Of a stretch of 64,000 nucleotides of DNA, positions 13,434 to 31,685 are shown in pieces (the first letter of the stretch is position 1; every line of letters begins with the position of its first letter). The stretch comes from Cellulophaga sp. BC115SP. GTDB taxonomy: Bacteria; Bacteroidota; Bacteroidia; Cytophagales; Spirosomataceae. Below the pieces are notes generated by a model that was given only the letters and a program-made list of their open reading frames with translations, had not been told where the DNA came from and made no database searches. A program made the position numbers and the translations under genes. Location of the stretch: contig NZ_JAAALB010000011.1 of NCBI RefSeq assembly GCF_009905545.1, positions 62,001-126,000 on the forward strand, given 5' to 3'.

Positions 13434-15386
13434 ATGAAGTTTCAAAAAGTTATTTTTAGTACTATATATCTACTTTTGATAGGTCCTTGGCTCTATGCTC
13501 AAATCAGATTTGAAGTGCATATCCCAGCTCAGGACCGTTCAAAAAATCTTCCTATTTTCATTGCTTGTAGTTTCAATAACTGGTCTCCAGGCGACCCCAA
13601 TTTTCGGTTAGAAGCGATTGGGAATAATACCTACGCTATTAATCTTCCTGATACACTTTCCTATTTTGAATACAAATTTACCCAAGGTTACTGGACACAA
13701 GTAGAGGGCGACTCGCAAGGACATAGCCGCCCGAACCGCATATACGATCGACTGAAGGAACAAAATCCACAACTTTTGAGCCTGCAAATCGAAGGATGGG
13801 AAGCTCGTCCTACCTATCGTTTTTACATCAAAAGTCTTCCAAAAAACACGCCACAGGACGCAAGTATTTATATTTCTGGAAATTTCAATAATTGGGATCC
13901 GGGAAATGAAAGTTACAAGCTTCAAAAGCAGTTTGATGGCACTTACCGAGTAACTGTTTCTACTGAATTAGAAAAGTTAGAGTATAAATTTACAAGGGGA
14001 AATTGGGTAACAGTAGAAGGTCAGGAGAATGGTAAAGCTTGTCCAAACCGCACTTTATATCGGAAAAGTGACTTTCGATTGGAAGAAATTCCTGTAGATA
14101 TAAAAGGTTGGGAAGACCTTACGGGTACATTTAATTTTTACTCGATTTACGATTTATTAATTCTATTTTCAGCTTTTCAGTGTATTCTGCTGTTGGTGGC
14201 AATTCCAACAATGCAAGACTACAACCGTAAAGCTAATCAATGGCTATTACTTTCGATTGCCTTTACAGCTATCATTCTGATTATGAAAACCTTAATGGGA
14301 TATAGAGTAGTAGCAGAGCAATATAGTCGCCTACTGTTGATTCCTGATTTTGCGTTGTTTCTATATGCTCCATTATTCTATTTCTATTTACAAAAACTCC
14401 TTTTCAAAACACCGCAAATGCCAGTAAAATGGTGGCTACATTTTGTTCTACCAATTGTTCAAATATTGGTATACATGCCATTTATGTTGCTGGATTCCAA
14501 AGAGTTATTAATAAAGCTATTAAACAAAGAGCAAGACATTCACATTGTTTCGGTATTTGCAGGAACAATTTCTTGGTTTGTCAATCTTTTCTATTGGTTT
14601 CTCAACTGGAAAACAGTAGAGGGATACAATAAACAATATCCTAATCAAGCCTCGAATGAACAAAATACTGATTATTTGCATACCGTATTAATTCTACAAG
14701 CCATTTGTCTTGTACTTTGGGCTTTTACGGGTTTATTGATATTTGGGCAACGATTTTTTGACTGGGACACCGTTTTACTCGCCGACAAGAGTATTGATAT
14801 TATTTGGTTGGCATTTTCGGCAATTCCATACTTCTTGGGGTATTTTGCCATTCATCAACCTGAGATTTTCAAAATTGCCAAAACCAGTCTTACGCAGGTC
14901 AATATTTTGCCGAATAAGGTATCTACAGAAAATGCATTGGTGTCACCTAAATTACCTGAAGTTTTACCTGAAATAGCACCACAAGCAGACGAAACGCCTG
15001 TTCTGGATATTGAAAAAGATGCTAATCACGAACAACTGATTGCCAGCTGGAAGGAAAAAATTGATGAGTTTATGAACTCCGAAAAGCCTTACACCAATGT
15101 TGGACTTACCTTAAACGAGTTGGCAGGAATGTTGAAAATAACGCCACACTTACTTTCGAAGGTAATCAATGAGGCGTATCAAAAAAACTTTTTTGACTTT
15201 ATCAATTCCTACAGAATTGAGGAATTTAAAATTCGTTTTGAAGACCCTCGCAACCGACAATTCACCATGTTGGCAATAGCATTTGATGTAGGCTTTAACT
15301 CAAAAACTGCCTTCAATCGTGCCTTTAAAAAAATGACTTCCCAAAGCCCAAGAGAATATTTCTTTGACTCTCGAGCGGAAGAATAA
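13434..15386 (+). CDS. 7TM AraC-family regulator with two carbohydrate-binding-like N-terminal repeats (SusR-like role proposed)
   Basis: The 650-residue protein has four parts. First comes a signal peptide (1-22). Then come two tandem ~100-residue repeats (24-121 and 126-225), each with SFNNWSPG/NFNNWDPG, EYKFT-G-W--VEG and PNR motifs, resembling CBM48/AMPK-type glycogen-binding domains. Seven hydrophobic helices follow (about 235-258, 268-290, 300-323, 332-352, 371-393, 414-438, 453-474). The end is an AraC double HTH (about 555-650; LTLNELAGMLKITPHLLSKVI, then LAIAFDVGFNSKTAFNRAFKKM). This layout suggests binding of glucan in the periplasm and direct control of DNA from the membrane. It lies just before susC, susD, susE and a GH13 gene, so regulation of that starch-type locus is a reasonable inference. 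7TM-AraC proteins are known in Bacteroidota; the duplicated binding domain is unusual to my knowledge. Confidence 0.85.
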   Translation: MKFQKVIFSTIYLLLIGPWLYAQIRFEVHIPAQDRSKNLPIFIACSFNNWSPGDPNFRLEAIGNNTYAINLPDTLSYFEYKFTQGYWTQVEGDSQGHSRPNRIYDRLKEQNPQLLSLQIEGWEARPTYRFYIKSLPKNTPQDASIYISGNFNNWDPGNESYKLQKQFDGTYRVTVSTELEKLEYKFTRGNWVTVEGQENGKACPNRTLYRKSDFRLEEIPVDIKGWEDLTGTFNFYSIYDLLILFSAFQCILLLVAIPTMQDYNRKANQWLLLSIAFTAIILIMKTLMGYRVVAEQYSRLLLIPDFALFLYAPLFYFYLQKLLFKTPQMPVKWWLHFVLPIVQILVYMPFMLLDSKELLIKLLNKEQDIHIVSVFAGTISWFVNLFYWFLNWKTVEGYNKQYPNQASNEQNTDYLHTVLILQAICLVLWAFTGLLIFGQRFFDWDTVLLADKSIDIIWLAFSAIPYFLGYFAIHQPEIFKIAKTSLTQVNILPNKVSTENALVSPKLPEVLPEIAPQADETPVLDIEKDANHEQLIASWKEKIDEFMNSEKPYTNVGLTLNELAGMLKITPHLLSKVINEAYQKNFFDFINSYRIEEFKIRFEDPRNRQFTMLAIAFDVGFNSKTAFNRAFKKMTSQSPREYFFDSRAEE

Positions 15387-15450: not shown

Positions 15451-16159
15451 ATCTCTACGAGTCTATCAATAAATTTCCTTCTCTAAATTTTTTCTATTTC
15501 TTCCAATCCCATTTGTACAATTCCATCACTTTTTTGTTTTAAGTCGATATTGAAAAAAATATCCCGTACCTTTGCAGTCTTTTTCAACTAAAAATGAGAA
15601 AAAATTGTCAAAAATAAGTACCATTTTATAAAGTGGAATATCTAAATAGTTATACAAAAGATTGAAATACAACAAGTTAAATTTTACTTTAAAATAAATC
15701 TTTAAAAAGTACAAAATACATAAAGTGGGACGACTTATGATAGTAAGGCATAGTACTTTTGTAAGAAAATATTTGAAAATTTCTCACACTTAGAGAAAAT
15801 ACATTTTTATAAACTAAAACTATTTCTCTCTATTTTGAGAGTAATGTACCAATTAATTATATATGAATTTTATTTACTTCCTCAACGCTATTTCCCCAAA
15901 GATGCATCAGTCTTTAGGGCGATTACATTCACGAATTACACTTCATCTTTCCATATTTTTTCATTCCCTATCCCGAATGAAAAGCTTTCATTTTATAAGG
16001 TAAAATCTCAAAAACTAAAATTTCCAAAGGGCTTTTGAGATAGTCCAAATTCAATCCAATTATATTTTTCAGTAATGACGGAGTCGGCAAAAGTGATTTT
16101 GCTGATAGCTCCTTGATTACCTTTTTTAAACCAATAATCCATTAACCAATTTCAATTTT
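15451..16159. promoter_or_regulatory. long AT-rich leader region before susC
   Basis: About 700 bp without a credible gene. Two Bacteroidota-type -7 boxes are present on the + strand, TACCTTTG (15567-15574) and TACTTTTG (15754-15761), neither with an ideally spaced -33 TTTG. Long regulated leaders are common before susC genes. No known riboswitch was recognised. Confidence 0.45.
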
Positions 16160-19150
16160 ATGTTTCAACAGAACTACGGAGAAGAATCAAAAAATTCTCG
16201 TTCGGAAGCTAGATTTTCTTTCAGTAAGAAACTCTGGCTATTGATGATGTTTAGCTGGGTGAGCGTAGCTGCATTTGCCCAAAACAAGGTGACGGGTACT
16301 GTAAAAGATGCCAAAGATGGTTCGCCGCTTCCTGGGGTGACTATCCAAGTAAAAGGACAGACAAAAGGTACTCAAACTACAGGTGATGGTAAATACCAAA
16401 TCAATGTCGCTGATAACACGGTATTGGTATTTAGTTTCATCGGAAAAGCAACCAAAGAAGTAACAGTAGGTAGCCAGACAGTGATTGATGTAAGCCTCGA
16501 AGATGATATCAAAACATTGGGAGAGGTTGTGGTAATTGGTTATGGTTCGCAAAAGAAAAAGGACTTGACGGGTTCTGTGGCGGCGATTAACTCAGAAGAT
16601 TTTAACAAAGGTAACATTGCTTCGCCAGACCAATTGGTTGTAGGTAAAGTAGCAGGGGTTCAAATCACCTCAAACGGTGGTGCACCAGGTGCTGGTAGTA
16701 CTATTCGTATTCGTGGAGGTGCATCCTTAAATGCCAATAACGACCCACTTATCGTAATCGACGGTGTGCCTTTAGACAACTCAGGTATTTCTGGTGCGCC
16801 AAGTGCTTTGAGTTTGATTAACCCGAACGACATCGAGTCGATGAACATTTTGAAAGATGCTTCGGCAACGGCGATTTATGGTTCACGTGCTTCAAACGGA
16901 GTTATTTTGATTACCACTAAAAAGGGAAGCAAAAACGGTGGTTTGAAAGTAAATTTCAGTTCACAAGCTTCATTGGCACAAAGCACAGGCTTCACAAAAG
17001 TGCTTTCAGCTGACCAATTCCGCACAATGATTAATGAAAAAGGTACTGCTGCTCAAATCGCTGTTTTGGGAAAAGCAAATACTAACTGGCAAGAGCAAAT
17101 TTACCGTAATGCGTTGAGTTCGGATAATAACTTAAGTGTTTCGGGTTCTTTGAAAAGTGTTCCTTTCCGTGTATCGGTAGGTTATACTAACCAAGATGGT
17201 ATCTTGAAAACTTCAAATATGGGTCGTACGTCTGCCTCTATCGGTATTTCTCCTACCCTTTTGAACAACCACTTGAAAATTGATGTGAATTTGAAAGGCT
17301 CAAACGTTGACAATACTTTTGCTAACACAGGCGCTATTGGTGCGGCTATTGCCTTTGACCCAACTCAATCTGTTTATTCAGGCAATAACAACTACGGTGG
17401 CTATTGGGAATGGTTAAACTCAGACGGAAAACCAAATACGATTGCACCTCGTAACCCTGTTGGGTTGTTGAACCAAACTAGCGATAAAAGTACAGTTCAA
17501 CGTAGTATTGGTAATATTCAATTGGATTACAAATTCCATTTCTTACCAGAATTGCGTGCTAATGTAAACGCAGGTTATGATGTTAGTAAAAGTGATGGAA
17601 CAAGATTTGTTCCTGCAACGGCAGCAGCTAACTATAGCACAGCTGGAGAGAAAACGGTATATACGCAAAACAAGACCAACAAATTGTTTGACTTTTATTT
17701 GAACTATGCCAAGGAATTGAAAGAAATCAACAGTAGAATTGACGTAATGGCTGGTTACGAGTACCAAGATTTCTTGACTGAAAGTACTAATATTAGAACA
17801 AACGCTGAAGGTTCAACGACTTATACCAATAGTCCATATAAGACACAAAACACTTTGGTATCATTCTTCGGTCGTATGAACTATACTTTTGACGATGCCT
17901 ATTTATTGACTTTCACAGTTCGTAGAGACGGATCTTCAAGATTTAACCCAGACAACCGTTGGGGTACATTCCCATCAGCAGCATTTGCTTGGAAATTGAA
18001 TGAAATGTCTTTCTTGAAAAACTCGAATACCATTTCTGAATTGAAATTACGTGTGGGTTACGGTATTACTGGTCAGCAAGATATTGGTCAAAACTATGCT
18101 TATTTGCCAAGATATACTGCTTCTTTAGACAATGCTCAGTATCAATTAGGTAACACTTTCTATACAACACTACGTGCTGAAGGTTATGATGCTAATATCA
18201 AATGGGAACAAACAGCTACGTCTAACGCAGGTATTGACTTTGCTTTCAAAAAAGCAAGACTTTCAGGTAGTATTGACTATTACTACAAAAACACAACTAA
18301 TTTGTTGAACGTGATTCCAGTTGCCGTTGGTACTAACTTGACCAACCAATTGTTGACAAACGTTGGTTCAATGGAAAACCAAGGGGTTGAATTAGCCTTA
18401 AACTACAACCCAATCCATACAGACAAATTTGACTGGAATGTCGCTTTCAACGCAACATACAATGTTAACAAAATTACAAAATTGACCAACAACAACGACC
18501 CTTCTTACCAAGGTGTATTAGTTGGCGGTATTGCAGGTGGTGTGGGTAGTACTATCCAAATCCACTCGGTAGGTTATCCAGCATATTCATATTATGTATT
18601 ACAACAAGCTTATGATGCAAGCGGTAAGCCTATTGAAGGAGTTTATGTTGACAGAAACGGTGATGGTATCATCAACGTCGATGACCAATATCGTTACAAA
18701 TCTCCAGCACCAAAAGTATTCTTAGGCTTCAACTCACAAATGACTTATGATAACTGGAGTTTTGGTTTTGTATTGAGAGGTAACATTGGCAATTATGTGT
18801 ATAACAACGTAAAATCTTCGAATGGAGCATATATCAACTTCCAAGGTTCTAACGGATATATCGCTAACCTTTCACCAAGTGTGTTTGATTCTCAATTTGC
18901 GAAAAATCAATTTTTCTCAGATTACTACATGGAAAATGCTTCATTCGTGAGAATGGAAAACATCACTTTGGGTTATACATTCAAGAAATTCTTGGGTAAC
19001 AAAGTAAATATGCGCTTGAATGCCACTGCACAAAACGTATTTACTATTACTAAATACACAGGCTTGAACCCAGAAGTTTCGGGTGGTATCGACAACAACG
19101 TGTACCCAGTACCACGTACTTACTCTTTAGGTTTGAACATTGGTTTCTAA
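16160..19150 (+). CDS. susC: SusC/RagA-family TonB-dependent outer-membrane transporter
   Basis: The 996-residue protein imports oligosaccharides, here probably maltodextrins, across the outer membrane with TonB energy. A cytoplasmic N-terminal stretch precedes the signal peptide (WLLMMFSWVSVAAFAQ). Then come a carboxypeptidase-regulatory-like domain (about 42-120, VTGTVKDAKDGSPLPGVTI), the family signature LGEVVVIGYGSQKKKDLTGS, the plug (LVVGKVAGVQITSNGGAPGAG) and the beta-barrel, which ends in Phe (SLGLNIGF). The length fits SusC proteins. It is followed after 69 bp by susD and then by a SusE-like lipoprotein and a GH13 amylase. The function is firm; the substrate is inferred from its neighbours. 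Confidence 0.96.
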   Translation: MFQQNYGEESKNSRSEARFSFSKKLWLLMMFSWVSVAAFAQNKVTGTVKDAKDGSPLPGVTIQVKGQTKGTQTTGDGKYQINVADNTVLVFSFIGKATKEVTVGSQTVIDVSLEDDIKTLGEVVVIGYGSQKKKDLTGSVAAINSEDFNKGNIASPDQLVVGKVAGVQITSNGGAPGAGSTIRIRGGASLNANNDPLIVIDGVPLDNSGISGAPSALSLINPNDIESMNILKDASATAIYGSRASNGVILITTKKGSKNGGLKVNFSSQASLAQSTGFTKVLSADQFRTMINEKGTAAQIAVLGKANTNWQEQIYRNALSSDNNLSVSGSLKSVPFRVSVGYTNQDGILKTSNMGRTSASIGISPTLLNNHLKIDVNLKGSNVDNTFANTGAIGAAIAFDPTQSVYSGNNNYGGYWEWLNSDGKPNTIAPRNPVGLLNQTSDKSTVQRSIGNIQLDYKFHFLPELRANVNAGYDVSKSDGTRFVPATAAANYSTAGEKTVYTQNKTNKLFDFYLNYAKELKEINSRIDVMAGYEYQDFLTESTNIRTNAEGSTTYTNSPYKTQNTLVSFFGRMNYTFDDAYLLTFTVRRDGSSRFNPDNRWGTFPSAAFAWKLNEMSFLKNSNTISELKLRVGYGITGQQDIGQNYAYLPRYTASLDNAQYQLGNTFYTTLRAEGYDANIKWEQTATSNAGIDFAFKKARLSGSIDYYYKNTTNLLNVIPVAVGTNLTNQLLTNVGSMENQGVELALNYNPIHTDKFDWNVAFNATYNVNKITKLTNNNDPSYQGVLVGGIAGGVGSTIQIHSVGYPAYSYYVLQQAYDASGKPIEGVYVDRNGDGIINVDDQYRYKSPAPKVFLGFNSQMTYDNWSFGFVLRGNIGNYVYNNVKSSNGAYINFQGSNGYIANLSPSVFDSQFAKNQFFSDYYMENASFVRMENITLGYTFKKFLGNKVNMRLNATAQNVFTITKYTGLNPEVSGGIDNNVYPVPRTYSLGLNIGF

Positions 19151-19219: not shown

Positions 19220-20809
19220 ATGAAAACAAGATTTTTCAAAAATATAGCATTATTCGGAGGGTTAGCAGCCAGTTTATTGGTTAGCTCATGTACGGGTGAT
19301 CTCGACAGAACTCCATTTATTGAAGTAACCTCAGCTACAGTTTACAACGACCCTGCTGCGTACAAACAAGCTGCTGCCAAACTTTATGCTGGTCTAGCAC
19401 TCACAGGGCAAGAAGGTCCTGCTGGAAAGCCAGATTTAGGTGGTATCGATGAGGGCTTCTCTAGTTACTTGCGTCAGTACTGGCAATTGCAGGAGCTTCC
19501 AACAGACGAAGCTGTTATTGCTTGGGGTGATGCTGGTTTACCAGAAATGAATACGATGCAATGGTCTTCTAACAACCCATTCGTAAGAGGTTTGTATAAC
19601 CGTATTTTCTACCAAATTGCCGCTTGTAATGAATATATTCGTGAAGCAAGCGATGCCAAATTGAGTAGTCGTGGTATTACAGGAACTAACTTAACCGACG
19701 TAAAATACCTTCGTACAGAAGCTCGTTTCTTGCGTGCATTAAGCTATTGGCATGCGTTGGATATGTTTGGAGGAAATGTTCCATTTGTCACTGAAGCCGA
19801 TGCTATTGGCTCAACATTGCCAAAGCAAACAAATGCTTCTGCTTTGTTTACTTATATCGAAACAGAACTAAAGGCTATCGAACCAGAAATGATGGATGCT
19901 CGTAAAAATGAGTATGCACGTGCTGACAAAGCAGCTGTTTGGATGTTGTTAGCAAAACTTTACTTAAATGCTGAAGCTGCTGGCGTTGGAGCAAAATATG
20001 CAGACGCTGCGACTTATGCGAAAAAAGTAATCGATGCTGGTTATACCTTAGAATCGAAATACACAAATCTTTTCAGAACTGACAATAACAATTCTAAAGA
20101 AGTTGTATTTCCAGTTGCGTTCGACGGAGTTCACACAAAAACTTGGGGTGGTATGACTTTCTTAGTACATGCTCCAGTGGGTGGTTCTATGTCAGCATCA
20201 TCATTTGGTATCGATGGTGGTTGGGGTGGTTTGCGTACGACAAAAGCTTTTGTAAGTCTTTTTGCTGACCCATCTGGCAAAACAGATACTCGTGCTATGT
20301 TCTACACAGACGGACAAAAATTGGAGATTGACGATTTGACTCAATTCTCGAATGGTTATGCGATTTCCAAATGGAAAAATATCTCTTCGACAGGTGCTCA
20401 AGGTTCTGATATTGTTCACCCAGACACCGACTTCCCAATGTTCCGTTTGGCAGATGCTTATTTGATTTATGCTGAGGCTGCCGCTCGTGGTGCTGGCGAT
20501 CGTACATTGGCGTTACAATATGTAAATGCACTTCGTACACGTGCCTTCGGAAATACGAATGGAAACATTACGGCTGCCCAATTAACAGCTGACTTTATTT
20601 TGGACGAGCGTGCTCGTGAATTATACTGGGAAGGTTCTCGTCGTACTGACTTGATTCGTTTTAACAAATACACTTCAGCTACGTATGTTTGGCCTTGGAA
20701 AGGTGGCGTAAAAGACGGTAAATCAGTAAGTGATTACTTGAAATTTTACCCAATTCCTTCGACTGACTTAACGGCTAACCCGAACCTAAAACAAAATACA
20801 GGATACTAA
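19220..20809 (+). CDS. susD: SusD/RagB-family surface glycan-binding lipoprotein
   Basis: The 529-residue lipoprotein (lipobox LLVSSC, Cys24) acts as the lid of the SusC transporter and binds glycan at the cell surface. TPR-type helices run along the protein (YLRTEARFLRALSYWHALDMFG; KAAVWMLLAKLYLNAEAAG). The C-terminal SusD signature is clear (MFRLADAYLIYAEAAARG; LDERARELYWEGSRRTDLIRF; PIPSTDLTANPNLKQNTGY). It lies directly after susC in the same transcript. A strong stem-loop follows at 20821-20865. Confidence 0.96.
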   Translation: MKTRFFKNIALFGGLAASLLVSSCTGDLDRTPFIEVTSATVYNDPAAYKQAAAKLYAGLALTGQEGPAGKPDLGGIDEGFSSYLRQYWQLQELPTDEAVIAWGDAGLPEMNTMQWSSNNPFVRGLYNRIFYQIAACNEYIREASDAKLSSRGITGTNLTDVKYLRTEARFLRALSYWHALDMFGGNVPFVTEADAIGSTLPKQTNASALFTYIETELKAIEPEMMDARKNEYARADKAAVWMLLAKLYLNAEAAGVGAKYADAATYAKKVIDAGYTLESKYTNLFRTDNNNSKEVVFPVAFDGVHTKTWGGMTFLVHAPVGGSMSASSFGIDGGWGGLRTTKAFVSLFADPSGKTDTRAMFYTDGQKLEIDDLTQFSNGYAISKWKNISSTGAQGSDIVHPDTDFPMFRLADAYLIYAEAAARGAGDRTLALQYVNALRTRAFGNTNGNITAAQLTADFILDERARELYWEGSRRTDLIRFNKYTSATYVWPWKGGVKDGKSVSDYLKFYPIPSTDLTANPNLKQNTGY

Positions 20810-21303: not shown

Positions 21304-22617
21304 ATGAAAAAGATATTTAGTACTTCTTTAATCGTTTTGGCTTCTCTGTTTGTTTTCACTTCTTGTGAAAAAGAAGAAGAAAAAGCCATCTTGAATACGA
21401 ATGCAGTGCCTTCGATTCAACTTTCAGCAAACACAGTGGTGTTGACCAAAGACAATGCTGATAAAGATGCCGTAACGCTTTCGTGGCCAAAACCAGACTA
21501 TGGTTTCTCAGCAGCGGCATCTTATACTATTTTGATTGATAAAAAAGGCGGTACTTTCGTGGCTCCTGTTTCAATCATCACCAATACAGCACTTACTAAA
21601 ACCTTCAAAACGTCAGAATTAAATGCTATTTTGATTAAGTTGGGCTTAGTTGCTGGAACCGCTGGAGATATCGACATTCGTGTAGTTTCTAATGTAGGTG
21701 ACAATACCTCAAAAACGTCGTTTACTTCTCCAACAATTTCGTTGAAAGCTACTCCTTACTTGGATAAACTAGATTTAACTACTATTTGGGGAGTTGTAGG
21801 TAGCGCCGCGGTAAACGGCTGGAATGGTCCAGATATGCCTTTCTACAAAACGGATAAAACTGACGAAATCGTCGCTTATGTAACTTTGAATGACGGCGAA
21901 ATCAAATTCCGTAGCAACAACAAATGGGATGTAAACTACGGGGATGATGGTGCCAATGGTACACTGGAAGCTGGTGGTGCTAATATCAAAGTGACAGCGG
22001 GTACTTATAAAATCACCTTCAATACATCTTCTTTAACCTATACAATCGAGAAATATTCTTGGGGATTAGTAGGAAGCGCTACACCAAGCGGATGGAATGC
22101 ACCAGATGTACCATTAACGTACGACCCAACTACCGACACATGGAAAGCAACGGCTTTCTTGAAAGCAGGTGAAATCAAAGTTCGTAAAAACGAAGATTGG
22201 GGTGTAAACTATGGTGGTGCAGGTGGTACTTTGGTACTTGGTGGCGATAACATCGCTGTTACTGAAGGAAATTACAATATTACCATCGACTTCAAGAAAA
22301 TGAAATTTACCGTTGAAGCTACTAAGCCTTGGGGTGTAGTAGGTGATGCAGCGCCAAACGGTTGGAATGGTCCAGACGTGAAATTCCGTCCTGATTTTGT
22401 TACAGAAAATGTTTTTGTAATTGATAATGTAACTTTAGGTACAGGCGAAATCAAGTTCCGTTACAACGATGCATGGGCTGTGAACTATGGTGATGATGGC
22501 GCCGATGGTAACCTAGAAGCTGGCGGTGCAAACATTAAAGTTACAGCAGGCAAATACCAAATCATTCTTGACTTGTCTAATGCTAGTAAGCCCAAATACA
22601 CATTGACCAAAAAGTAA
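21304..22617 (+). CDS. susE: SusE/SusF-like surface starch-binding lipoprotein
   Basis: The ATG at 21304 gives a normal lipoprotein signal (MKKIFSTSLIVLASLFVFTSC, Cys21), so it is preferred to an upstream TTG. The 437 residues contain an N-terminal SusE-type Ig-like domain (about 35-150) and three tandem repeats of about 90 residues (162-249, 252-341, 343-437). Each repeat holds WG-VG-A--GWN-PD, GEIKFR, W-VNYG and L--GG-NI-VT-G-Y. This is the pattern of SusE/SusF starch-binding modules, which hold starch at the surface. The protein has no catalytic role. Its neighbours (susC, susD, GH13) support the assignment. Whether it is an orthologue of SusE or SusF cannot be told. Confidence 0.88.
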   Translation: MKKIFSTSLIVLASLFVFTSCEKEEEKAILNTNAVPSIQLSANTVVLTKDNADKDAVTLSWPKPDYGFSAAASYTILIDKKGGTFVAPVSIITNTALTKTFKTSELNAILIKLGLVAGTAGDIDIRVVSNVGDNTSKTSFTSPTISLKATPYLDKLDLTTIWGVVGSAAVNGWNGPDMPFYKTDKTDEIVAYVTLNDGEIKFRSNNKWDVNYGDDGANGTLEAGGANIKVTAGTYKITFNTSSLTYTIEKYSWGLVGSATPSGWNAPDVPLTYDPTTDTWKATAFLKAGEIKVRKNEDWGVNYGGAGGTLVLGGDNIAVTEGNYNITIDFKKMKFTVEATKPWGVVGDAAPNGWNGPDVKFRPDFVTENVFVIDNVTLGTGEIKFRYNDAWAVNYGDDGADGNLEAGGANIKVTAGKYQIILDLSNASKPKYTLTKK

Positions 22618-22713: not shown

Positions 22714-24258
22714 ATGAAAAAGCTATTTTTATTGGGCATTGCTTTGCTCAGTACTTTCAATCCTTTTGCCCAATCCAAAACACCTGAGGTATGTTATGAG
22801 ATTTTTGTGCGCTCATTTGCAGACTCCAATGGCGATGGTATTGGTGACATCAACGGGATTACTTCGAAGCTAGATTACCTTAAATCACTTGGCGTTGATG
22901 CGCTATGGTTAACTCCTGTGAGCAATTCACCATCATATCATAAATATGATGTAACTGATTATAAATCCATTGACCCTGAATTTGGTACTATCGACGACTA
23001 TAAAAGACTTATTTCGGAGGCTCATAAGCGTAAAATCAAAATCATCAAAGACTTTGTCATCAACCATACAAGCGATAAGCACCCTTGGTTTTTAGAAGCA
23101 AAAAAAGGAAAATCAAATCCTTACCGTGATTATTACGTATGGATGACCCCAAAAATGATTGATTCGTTGGGTATTGCGACTCGTGAACAAGCAGGTGGTT
23201 CTTGGGAAGTTACTCCTTGGCACTTTGCCCATCAAGGAGATACCGAAAAGTACTATGCTTTGTTTTGGGGAGGTATGCCCGATTTGAATTATGATAATCC
23301 AAAAGTTCGTAAAGAAGTTTACGAGGCTGCCAAGTATTGGTTGAAAGAAGTGGGAGTTGATGGTTTCCGTTTAGATGCTGCGAAACATATTTATCCAGAT
23401 TGGGAGGCAGAAAAATGTCATGCTTTCTGGCAAGAATTCCGTAAGGAAATGACAGCTACAAAACCTGACGTATATATCGTAGGTGAAGTTTGGACTTCGG
23501 CAGACAAAGTTGCTCCTTATTTCAAGGGCTTACCTGCAAACTTCCATATCGATGAAGGATTTGCTATTCAGAAGGTGGTAAAAGACGGAAAAGAAGATAA
23601 TTTAATTCAAAAAATCCTATCTGATTACAAAGCCTTTGGCTCACAAAATCCTGATTTTATTGATGCTACTATTATTGATAACCATGACCAAGATCGTATT
23701 GGTACAGTCATGAACGACGATGTTAACAAAATGAAAGTAGCCGCTCAATTACTACTATCCTTGCCAGGTCAACCTTATATTTATTATGGAGAAGAGTTAG
23801 GGATGTTAGGCAAAAAACCTGATGAAAACATTCGTGAACCATTTCTTTGGGAAAAAGAAGCCAGCGATAAAGCTCGCACAAAATGGATGAAGCCTGTTTT
23901 TACAACTGAAAAAACAGTCCGTCCACTTTCTGAGCAAATCAAAGACCCTAATTCTGTTTTTAGTACCTATAAAAATCTCATCGCTTTCCGTAAAAGTCAA
24001 CCAGCGATGCGTCAAGTAATTCGTCCGAATTTACAAGAAAGTGCTATTAAACAAGAAGGTATCTTGGCTTTTGTCAGAAACCATACCTCAGGTAATTTGT
24101 TGGTGATTCATAACCTAACAGGCAAAGCTCAGGATATTCAATTGCCATCATCAGAACAAAAATATAAAGCTATTGTATTTACGACTTCAGGCAAAAAAGG
24201 AGCACTAAATTCCACAAAAGTTGCAGTTCCAGCGTTTGGAATGGTGGTTTTGAAATAG
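22714..24258 (+). CDS. GH13 alpha-amylase family glycosidase
   Basis: This secreted 514-residue enzyme cleaves alpha-1,4-glucans. The signal peptide ends near residue 19 (NPFAQ). The GH13 regions are complete: the nucleophile D221 in GVDGFRLDAAKH, the acid/base E258 in IVGEVWT, and the transition-state Asp D325 in IDNHDQDR. The region YEIFVRSFADSNGDGIGDING resembles oligosaccharide-type GH13 enzymes. The C-terminal beta domain ends in AVPAFGMVVL. As the last gene of the susCDE cluster it is the likely periplasmic or surface hydrolase for starch fragments. The exact product is unknown. Confidence 0.94.
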   Translation: MKKLFLLGIALLSTFNPFAQSKTPEVCYEIFVRSFADSNGDGIGDINGITSKLDYLKSLGVDALWLTPVSNSPSYHKYDVTDYKSIDPEFGTIDDYKRLISEAHKRKIKIIKDFVINHTSDKHPWFLEAKKGKSNPYRDYYVWMTPKMIDSLGIATREQAGGSWEVTPWHFAHQGDTEKYYALFWGGMPDLNYDNPKVRKEVYEAAKYWLKEVGVDGFRLDAAKHIYPDWEAEKCHAFWQEFRKEMTATKPDVYIVGEVWTSADKVAPYFKGLPANFHIDEGFAIQKVVKDGKEDNLIQKILSDYKAFGSQNPDFIDATIIDNHDQDRIGTVMNDDVNKMKVAAQLLLSLPGQPYIYYGEELGMLGKKPDENIREPFLWEKEASDKARTKWMKPVFTTEKTVRPLSEQIKDPNSVFSTYKNLIAFRKSQPAMRQVIRPNLQESAIKQEGILAFVRNHTSGNLLVIHNLTGKAQDIQLPSSEQKYKAIVFTTSGKKGALNSTKVAVPAFGMVVLK

Positions 24259-30293: not shown

Positions 30294-31685
30294 ATGGGAA
30301 ACAACCTAAGTAGTAACGGCGGTTACCGTTACATGGCAGCAAACCCTAATGCAGAAGAATTCAAACCTTCAAAACGTTCAAAGAAAAAACTTCCTCCCAA
30401 AGTAGACCTCCGCAAATACATGACCAAGGTAGAAAACCAGAAGTCATTGAGTAGTTGTACGGCAAATGCTACCGCTGGGGCTTATGAGTATCTTGCCAAA
30501 CGTCATTTGAAAAATCGTCAATTTGAAGTAAGTCGTCTCTTTGTTTATTACAATGCTCGATTAAGAGCTAGCAATGTTATCAAAGATGAGGGCAGTCATA
30601 TTCAGTACGCGGTTGAAAGTTTACATAAGCTTGGCGCATGTACAGAGGATGTATGGCCTTATGAATTGAAAAAAGTAAATAACAAACCTAATACAGCGAG
30701 TTATGATGAGGCGAGTTATTTTAAGGTACAGAAATCTAAATATGTACCAACTGACTTAAAATCATGGAAACAAGCATTGGCAGAAGGATATCCCATTATT
30801 TTTGGTATCGCTCTTTTTGAAGGTTTTGATAATTGTCAAAAATATGGCGGTGTAGTACCAATGCCTTCGCCAGATGAGGCTTCTCGTGCTGCTCATGGAT
30901 TACACGCGATGCTTTGTGTAGGATATTCGGAGGCTGACGAAATGTTCATTGTTCGTAACTCTTGGGGAGAAGAATGGGGAGATAAAGGATACTGTTATAT
31001 GCCTTATCAGTACGTAATCAATGAAAAGTTTAACCTCGGAGATAGCTGGCTTATCAAACGTACTGACCCAATTCCAGATTTTGAAGATACTTGGGTAAAC
31101 GATAAGAAGTCAATTATTGCTAAAAGTGGAGCTGCAAATGCGGCAAGTTTGCCTGTTTATTCGGCTGATGACTACGAAGACTTTGATGTTTGGACTATTT
31201 TCGAAGACGAATTAGTAGACGAATATGATGAAGTTGGCTGCGATGAATACGAAGAGCTTGAATACATAGAAAGCGACCTTGACGAAGAAGGTGAAGAGGA
31301 AGAGTACGATGAGGAGGAAGAAGAGGATGAAGACTCGGAAGACGAGGAAGAATACGACGAAGAAGAGGAAGAGGAGGAGTCTGATGAGGAGGAAGAATAC
31401 GACGAAGAGGAGGAAGAAGAAGAGTCGGATGACGAGGAAGAATACGACGAAGAGGAGGAAGAAGAGTCTGATGACGAGGAAGAATACGACGAAGAGGAGG
31501 AAGAAGAAGAGTCTGATGATGAGGAAGAATACGACGAAGAGGAGGAGGAGGAAGAGTCTGAAGACGAGGAAGAATATGACGAAGAGGAGGAAGAAGAAGA
31601 GTCCGAAGAAGAATCTGAAGACGAAGAGGAAGAAGAAGAATCCGAGGAGGAAGAATCTGGCGAAGAGGAAGAGGAGGAAGAATAG
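30294..31685 (+). CDS. papain-like C1 peptidase with a ~140-residue Glu/Asp-rich repeat tail
   Basis: The first ~260 residues are a C1-type cysteine peptidase. The oxyanion Q49, nucleophile C55 (NQKSLSSCTANATAGAYEY), H204 (HGLHAMLCVGY) and N222 (VRNSWGEEWGDKGYC) form the full active site. No signal peptide or propeptide is visible; the protein starts MGNNLSSNGGYRYMAAN. From about residue 290 the sequence turns acidic, and from about 325 it is a chain of SDDEEEYDEEEEEEE-type repeats to the end (463). About six tandem units of 13-14 codons can be seen. The tail is encoded by an almost pure-purine + strand, which creates long false ORFs in other frames. Substrate and role are unknown; the tail could bind cations or a basic partner. 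Confidence 0.88.
   Translation: MGNNLSSNGGYRYMAANPNAEEFKPSKRSKKKLPPKVDLRKYMTKVENQKSLSSCTANATAGAYEYLAKRHLKNRQFEVSRLFVYYNARLRASNVIKDEGSHIQYAVESLHKLGACTEDVWPYELKKVNNKPNTASYDEASYFKVQKSKYVPTDLKSWKQALAEGYPIIFGIALFEGFDNCQKYGGVVPMPSPDEASRAAHGLHAMLCVGYSEADEMFIVRNSWGEEWGDKGYCYMPYQYVINEKFNLGDSWLIKRTDPIPDFEDTWVNDKKSIIAKSGAANAASLPVYSADDYEDFDVWTIFEDELVDEYDEVGCDEYEELEYIESDLDEEGEEEEYDEEEEEDEDSEDEEEYDEEEEEEESDEEEEYDEEEEEEESDDEEEYDEEEEEESDDEEEYDEEEEEEESDDEEEYDEEEEEEESEDEEEYDEEEEEEESEEESEDEEEEEESEEEESGEEEEEEE

Follow-up and report, generated by a model that had tools for sequence, protein, structure and literature searches.

Some of the RsgI anti-sigma factors use carbohydrate-binding modules (CBMs) as sensors. 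In Clostridium thermocellum, these membrane proteins couple substrate sensing outside the cell to gene expression inside it (PMC12203970). The starch Sus regulator SusR (BT3705) of Bacteroides thetaiotaomicron also spans the membrane and senses its signal, maltose, in the periplasm. Its DNA-binding domain is described as unlike those of other known transcription factors, and the centers of its motif sites are separated by 67 or 77 bp, which was interpreted as six or seven helical turns (PMC3878776). The hybrid two-component systems (HTCS) of the Bacteroidetes combine a periplasmic glycan sensor with an AraC-type output in the control of SusC/D loci (PMC3878776). Comparative analysis of a 64,000-nucleotide stretch of Cellulophaga sp. 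BC115SP (contig NZ_JAAALB010000011.1, positions 62,001 to 126,000; the window) revealed a gene beside a starch locus whose product joins two CBM-like modules, seven transmembrane (7TM) helices, and an AraC-type DNA-binding domain. This 7TM-AraC protein probably controls an alpha-glucan (starch/maltodextrin) locus as a transmembrane transcription factor of the one-component type; it would sense its ligand through periplasmic modules, act on a distal palindrome and a promoter-proximal half-site, and activate susC. Each part has a precedent, i.e., one-component membrane regulators (SusR), AraC outputs in the control of polysaccharide loci (HTCS), and carbohydrate-sensing membrane regulators (RsgI), and no account of a CBM-7TM-AraC regulator with its operator, or of starch-locus regulation in the Spirosomataceae and kin, was found in the literature searched (at the level of titles and abstract openings, most subscription journals lying outside its scope).

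The signal peptide, two repeats of approximately 100 residues, seven hydrophobic helices, and AraC double helix-turn-helix (HTH) that a preliminary description had read from this gene were all recovered. The signal peptide was visible in the sequence with a hydrophobic peak at residues 6-24; cleavage would fall at A|Q, and Q23 was conserved in at least 90% of 45 sequences. The first repeat spans residues 22-123 and the second 124-232; they were 33% identical across 99 residues (E = 2e-22), both contained the motifs FNNW-PG, EYKFT-G-W--VEG, and PNR, and the two family profiles matched each other with 100% probability (E = 1.7e-45). The full-length AlphaFold model (38 sequences, mean pLDDT 79) displayed two beta modules, seven long helices (residues 238-260, 265-288, 298-324, 333-351, 367-404, 412-442, and 447-474) coinciding with the hydropathy peaks, a low-confidence linker, and a helical C-terminal domain. 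The HTH_18 score of 49 bits against a Pfam cut-off of 33.6 placed the protein in the AraC/XylS family, and the top Foldseek matches included AraC-type DNA-binding domains. Together, the signal peptide, the odd number of transmembrane helices, and the cytoplasmic HTH would locate the modules in the periplasm. An orthologue with 94% identity was present in Flectobacillus sp. BAB-3569 (L131; our G and L numbers designate genomes and loci), and the transmembrane segment was common to the regulator and to AraC proteins of approximately 400 residues.

Comparison with SusR supported the earlier suggestion of a different layout: the regulator carries an AraC HTH_18 domain, whereas SusR is set apart by the published description of its DNA-binding domain rather than by the BT3705 sequence (PMC3878776). 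Both systems share a membrane-spanning starch regulator with periplasmic sensing, predicted in the present case, and paired, far-apart DNA sites (67 or 77 bp between centers in SusR, 69-95.5 bp from palindrome center to half-site here). The SusR motifs are direct repeats, in contrast to a palindrome plus half-site (PMC3878776). The HTCS resemblance in sensor, output, and target locus did not extend to domain content, as histidine kinase, receiver, and Reg_prop domains gave no listed Pfam match in the regulator (E<=10, with the HMMER filters dropping most weak matches). A FecR domain and an RsgI-type anti-sigma domain were likewise without a match, and no 7TM family such as 7TMR-DISM occurred among the Pfam matches at E<=10. 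The RsgI factors are similar in sensing substrate outside and driving gene expression inside; they differ in a sigma-factor output released by proteolysis in place of a covalently attached AraC domain and 7TM segment.

The N-terminal repeats, proposed earlier to be carbohydrate-binding-like, are indicated by profile and fold comparisons to be modules of the alpha-glucan-binding type (AMPK1_CBM/CBM48/X25/CBM26). Among the double-module N-termini of 32 orthologues, AMPK1_CBM was matched by 22, X25_BaPul_like by 20, and CBM_48 by eight at E<=0.01 (best 2.3e-8). The module-1 profile found its best solved structure in BoGH13ASus, the CBM98-CBM48 alpha-amylase of the Bacteroides ovatus Sus, at a whole-sequence E-value of 1e-5 that was summed across weak stretches and did not distinguish between CBM98 and CBM48, followed by AMPK beta at 0.06. 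The module-2 profile retrieved little from the PDB (best E-value 0.065, BoGH13ASus 0.07). The structure prediction advised in the preliminary description gave a two-module N-terminal model with a mean pLDDT of 90 and the predicted beta-sandwich fold of starch-binding domains, and alpha-glucan enzymes or binding modules made up 40 of the 50 Foldseek rows listed (E-values 5e-6 to 9e-4), including tandem CBM26, CBM41, cyclodextrin glucanotransferases (CGTases), branching enzymes, and BoGH13ASus. Since TM-scores were low and CGTase entries redundant, this result shows kinship of fold rather than subfamily. The other 10 listed rows were other proteins, mostly Ig-like; an unrelated Ig-like family was nevertheless set aside on the profile and fold evidence, and a marginal Chibby match of the isolated N-terminus (26.8 vs. 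24.8 bits), also obtained for three of 38 module-2 copies, was taken as spurious.

The FNNW and YK/GxW motifs aligned with AMPK beta, CBM48, and CBM20 modules, from which the present modules differ in that they would serve in tandem as the sensor of a transcriptional regulator instead of belonging to a kinase or enzyme, BoGH13ASus being a secreted enzyme and no regulator. In a 42-row alignment, W154 and W191 were invariant and K185 and N205 conserved in at least 90%. We take module-2 W154, K185, W191, and N205 to be equivalent to the sugar-contacting AMPK beta1 residues W100, K126, W133, and N150, based on how the module-1 motifs align with AMPK beta and on the alignment of modules 1 and 2 rather than on superposed structures, and for N205 on motif order only.

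Modules of this kind also occurred outside the regulator. The closest other copy in the genome (L016 1462-2538, contig C158; 47% identical over 75 residues) was joined to a putative esterase domain (PF00756) and showed no apparent signal peptide. Many genomes of the family contained open frames of approximately 360-400 residues with such a module match, and module matches without an AraC part, mostly in tandem, were detected in metagenome-assembled genomes (MAGs) of Bacteroidota (L173, L175, L176, L182, L183, L201, and L206).

Recognition by the N-terminus placed an orthologue of the regulator in 72 of the 222 family genomes, with two copies in G126, or in 73 when a further copy cut at a contig end in G170 is counted. 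Beyond the family, orthologues extended to Hymenobacter, Flavobacteriaceae, Saprospiraceae, and other groups. Named hosts included Runella, Spirosoma, Dyadobacter, Emticicia, Hymenobacter, Chryseolinea, Daejeonella, Saprospiraceae MAGs, Maribacter, Zobellia, Cellulophaga, and Flammeovirga. The predicted link to susC-susD-susE-GH13 was conserved across genera: among 72 loci drawn from the other family genomes, two of them from G126, SusC, SusD, and SusE occurred together in 54 and any Sus or GH13 match within approximately 10 kb in 59. The loci in named genomes lay near SusC/D/E or GH13 in 29 of 42 cases by tblastn and in 34 of 42 after the addition of alpha-amylases detected with Pfam at L141/L118 (L141 agreeing with L118 in length and gene coordinates), L156 (amylase beginning approximately 2 kb downstream of the regulator), L158, L166, and L170, these scans covering one or two neighbors each at some of the exceptional loci. 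One truncated copy (L155), in no alignment, is included among the 42, and four others (L136, L157, L167, and L171) were left out of alignment A3.

Related proteins whose match lacked the modules occurred beside Sus or GH13 genes at none of 31 loci (by tblastn only, Pfam having been run on the orthologue side alone), suggesting that the association with alpha-glucan loci travels with the modules. These 31 loci were defined by a match covering the transmembrane and/or HTH part only; they were not each inspected for transmembrane helices or other domains, and some end at contig ends. Regulator and SusD co-occurred in 66 of the 222 genomes, with six containing the regulator only, seven SusD only, and 143 neither, kinship being ignored. 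In this count the regulator class comprised the 72 genomes with N-terminal matches (thus missing the G170 copy), six SusD candidates were scored per genome, and four weak SusD matches of 77 (G122, G183, G203, and G208; E-values 1e-41 to 1e-43) were omitted. In three genomes, the regulator gene was directly downstream of a gyrase/topoisomerase A gene (L106, L111, and L119).

Dyad counting across 41 regions upstream of susC identified GTGG-N2-CGAC in 19 regions vs. 0.1 expected. The aligned half-site, AAARTGGNACGAC, was followed after a nearly fixed gap (18 bp in most, 19 in the window) by TAnnTTTG, which we take to be the -7 box consensus of Bacteroidetes promoters, and a position weight matrix of 30 chosen half-sites contained 19.7 bits. 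In regulator genomes G048 and G130, the site was also present at an unlinked susC, and in G131 at a susC that several genes separate from the regulator. L094 had it ahead of a different susC, Emticicia and kin ahead of the gene preceding susC (GH53 where scanned), and L075, where SusC/D/E are not at the locus, ahead of the GH13 gene directly downstream of the regulator. Of three Hymenobacter loci, two (L154 and L157, not L171) showed a weaker version ahead of genes of the cyclomaltodextrinase type. Position beside the regulator therefore does not explain the site. A blind scan of the 222 genomes for the exact half-site plus -7 box at gap 18 returned 35 genomes, 33 of them with the regulator (34 counting G170), and the five exact sites beyond the loci already known lay ahead of alpha-amylase genes in four cases and of a SusC-like gene in the fifth. 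With one mismatch allowed, the scan returned 65 genomes, 54 with the regulator; a reversed control pattern gave about 26 scattered one-mismatch matches, so that chance may account for most of the one-mismatch sites where the regulator is absent. The combination of half-site and -7 box was missing from six susC regions of five regulator-less genomes.

No excess of half-sites suggested a wider regulon in the organism itself, with 19 + 17 matches at <=1 mismatch in the genome vs. 17 + 15 for the reversed control, and seven at <=2 mismatches within the window vs. 6.2 in shuffles. A GH53 gene (endo-beta-1,4-galactanase family) that precedes susC and carries the operator was confirmed at L077 (7226-8338), L100 (15401-16525), and L119 (16404-17564), and similar-sized genes held this position in Lacihabitans and others. 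It is an odd partner, because the scanned downstream genes of such loci were alpha-amylases and cyclomaltodextrinases, and a galactan locus was set aside given alpha-amylase and/or cyclomaltodextrinase genes after SusE in L135 (the L077 locus), L140, and L145, the first gene of the latter two being outside the scan.

A second half-site adjoining the proximal one was discarded as no conserved column occurred upstream, the second site being a distant palindrome. In 46 non-redundant regions, hand-picked for half-site plus -7 box (54 before removal of near-duplicates; L091 and L142 were left out for want of a -7 match and L099 of a primary site), 45 had a further copy of the half-site core (<=1 mismatch) in the interval 60-130 bp upstream, vs. 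one of 46 for a control interval at 160-230 bp; shuffled sequences gave 2.1 regions on average and 6 at most. The palindrome GTNCCAYTTT-N2/3-AAARTGGNAC was matched at >=16 of 20 positions in 44 of the 46 regions (not in L100 and L292), compared with a mean of 0.75 and a largest count of 3 for 46 random windows. The window copy was the sole place with <=1 palindrome mismatch in the 7.08-Mb genome, which contained no version with a 3-bp gap at <=2 mismatches. The palindrome center lay 69-95.5 bp before the proximal half-site, with clusters at 69, 77-86, and 91-96 bp, and the spacings were coherent in phase, with p-values of approximately 0.003 at a period of 10 bp, 3e-4 at 10.5 bp, and 2.5e-5 at 11 bp (kinship ignored). 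Such helical phasing suggests that a single protein complex touches both sites.

Several findings weigh against the assignment of the 7TM-AraC protein as an alpha-glucan regulator acting through this operator. The profile search for CBM48, CBM20, and AMPK1_CBM anticipated in the preliminary description gave matches for many of the orthologue N-termini but none above cut-off for the window protein itself, in which all starch-binding Pfam families were sub-threshold (best CBM53, X25_BaPul_like, and AMPK1_CBM, at 14-21 vs. approximately 27 bits), and module 2 alone (38 copies) matched rarely (AMPK1_CBM three, X25_BaPul_like one, and CBM_48 two at E<=0.01). In BoGH13ASus, CBM98 is reported to bind maltooligosaccharides and CBM48 not to, so module kinship is no proof of glucan binding (PMC11633381). 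No Sus or GH13 match was present at 13 of the 72 family loci, and the genomes are related, so that the counts overstate independent events. The composite site at <=1 mismatch was missing from 18 of the 72 regulator genomes, including that of the window, whose gap of 19 instead of 18 placed it outside the scanned pattern; the half-site was absent at the unlinked susC of four regulator genomes (G041, G046, G141, and G146); and G168 had a site with no regulator detected. Finally, three of the six regulator-less control regions (G040 twice and G044) have FecR or Reg_prop genes beside them and probably represent paralogous loci that other regulators control, which makes G152, G199, and G212 the cleaner negative controls.

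Part of this evidence would suit modules with a target other than maltodextrin, whether a different glycan or a partner protein (e.g., SusE), the fold having been reused as an interaction domain. No ligand-bound solved relative was close in sequence, the CBM48 of BoGH13ASus is reported as non-binding for maltooligosaccharides (PMC11633381), the closest other domain copy in the genome is joined to an esterase, and three scanned loci bear the operator at GH53. Such a ligand appears unlikely since the neighbors and operator targets in the scanned loci, including Emticicia and Lacihabitans, were alpha-amylases, cyclomaltodextrinases, and SusC/D/E. The conservation of the residues presumed equivalent to the AMPK beta glucan contacts also argues for an alpha-glucan.

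Simple dimeric regulators use near-perfect palindromes more typically than AraC proteins do. The distal site, the G168 site, and the four site-less regulator genomes would be compatible with an operator read by another transcription factor, e.g., a soluble palindrome-preferring dimer, with the 7TM-AraC protein merely co-occurring or acting elsewhere. This was judged improbable as the exact sites follow the regulator in 33-34 of 35 genomes, L075 and two Hymenobacter loci retain both regulator and site though SusC/D/E are not there, and regulator-less genomes, most cleanly G152, G199, and G212, lack the site at susC. It is equally improbable that the seven-helix domain is the sensor and the modules only keep the receptor near glucan or dimerize it: this domain may be the sensor in the related 7TM-AraC proteins of approximately 400 residues, module-less matches were common in the search list, and module 1 is dispensable, as five Fibrella/Fibrivirga-type family genomes (L126-L130) and Hymenobacter copies have module 2 only, but none of the 31 module-less loci was found at alpha-glucan genes by tblastn.

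The adjoining genes agreed with the starch locus recognized earlier, SusC, SusD, SusE, and a GH13 enzyme with SusG_C domain being confirmed by family profiles (Table 1). The leader between the -7 box and susC (15762-16159, approximately 390 nt) was longer than in most relatives and had no Rfam match up to E = 1; the half-site lies 438 bp from the susC ATG compared with approximately 110 bp in most relatives, a distance also long in other genomes of the genus. A second susC-susD pair in the genome (L248, contig C144; SusD 53% identical) adjoined a Reg_prop gene, as in HTCS regulators, and the operator was not found there. Elsewhere in the window, positions 30294-31685 encode a papain-family cysteine peptidase (PF00112) whose long C-terminal tail consists mostly of Asp/Glu.

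Table 1. Features of the regulator gene, candidate operator, and adjoining starch locus (positions within the window).
Feature	Position	Strand	Basis
7TM-AraC regulator with two periplasmic glucan-binding-like modules (predicted), 650 aa	13434..15386	+	ORF exact, ATG start; HTH_18 49 bits; AlphaFold pLDDT 79
Signal peptide MKFQKVIFSTIYLLLIGPWLYAQ, residues 1-22	13434..13499	+	Sequence; hydrophobic peak residues 6-24
Module 1, residues 23-123, CBM48/AMPK/BoGH13A-like	13500..13802	+	
Module 2, residues 124-232	13803..14129	+	W154, K185, W191 invariant in 38 sequences; N205 >=90%
Seven transmembrane helices, residues 238-474	14145..14855	+	AlphaFold; hydropathy
Disordered cytoplasmic linker, residues 478-528	14865..15017	+	pLDDT<50
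AraC-type double HTH (HTH_18), residues 563-642	15120..15359	+	Pfam; Foldseek matches
Distal palindromic operator (candidate) GTACCATTTTATAAAGTGGAAT	15618..15639		One mismatch to GTNCCAYTTTNNAAARTGGNAC
Promoter-proximal half-site AAAGTGGGACGAC	15722..15734	+	
-7 promoter box TACTTTTG (TAnnTTTG)	15754..15761	+	19 bp after half-site; sequence, column profile
susC, TonB-linked outer membrane protein, predicted target	16160..19150	+	TIGR04056 785.8 bits
susD	19220..20809	+	PF07980; NF033071 SusD 442 bits (below cut-off 725)
susE with three X25-like repeats	21304..22617	+	PF14292, PF22058
GH13 alpha-amylase with SusG_C domain	22714..24258	+	PF00128 5.3e-104, PF23915

In the proposed mechanism, the modules of the 7TM-AraC regulator would bind maltodextrins imported by SusC/SusD, and the ligand signal would pass via the seven helices to AraC DNA-binding domains held on a flexible linker of approximately 50 residues. 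A dimer or higher oligomer might then occupy the distal palindrome and bridge about 7-9 helical turns to the single half-site, which is situated 18-19 bp upstream of the -7 box, at the place of a -33 element. RNA polymerase could be recruited there for transcription of susC-susD-susE-GH13, or of other alpha-amylase genes in other species. Activation rather than repression is suggested by the site position and, by analogy, the SusR precedent.

A widespread candidate regulator, a residue-level ligand hypothesis, and an operator with coordinates render sensing, DNA binding, and looping testable in one strain, and alpha-glucan targets become predictable from the operator sequence alone. If the assignment is correct, the regulator would be a further case in which carbohydrate-binding modules provide a transcription factor with its sensory domain, and it hints at the role of the numerous related AraC proteins that are bound to the membrane. 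There is an even chance that the Bacteroidota possess here a separate class of glycan receptor-regulator besides SusR, HTCS, and extracytoplasmic function (ECF)/anti-sigma systems, defined by modules, a 7TM segment, and a tethered AraC domain that acts on a bipartite operator with DNA looping at the inner membrane upon maltodextrin binding on the outer side. The many related module-less AraC proteins would then represent the same chassis with other inputs.

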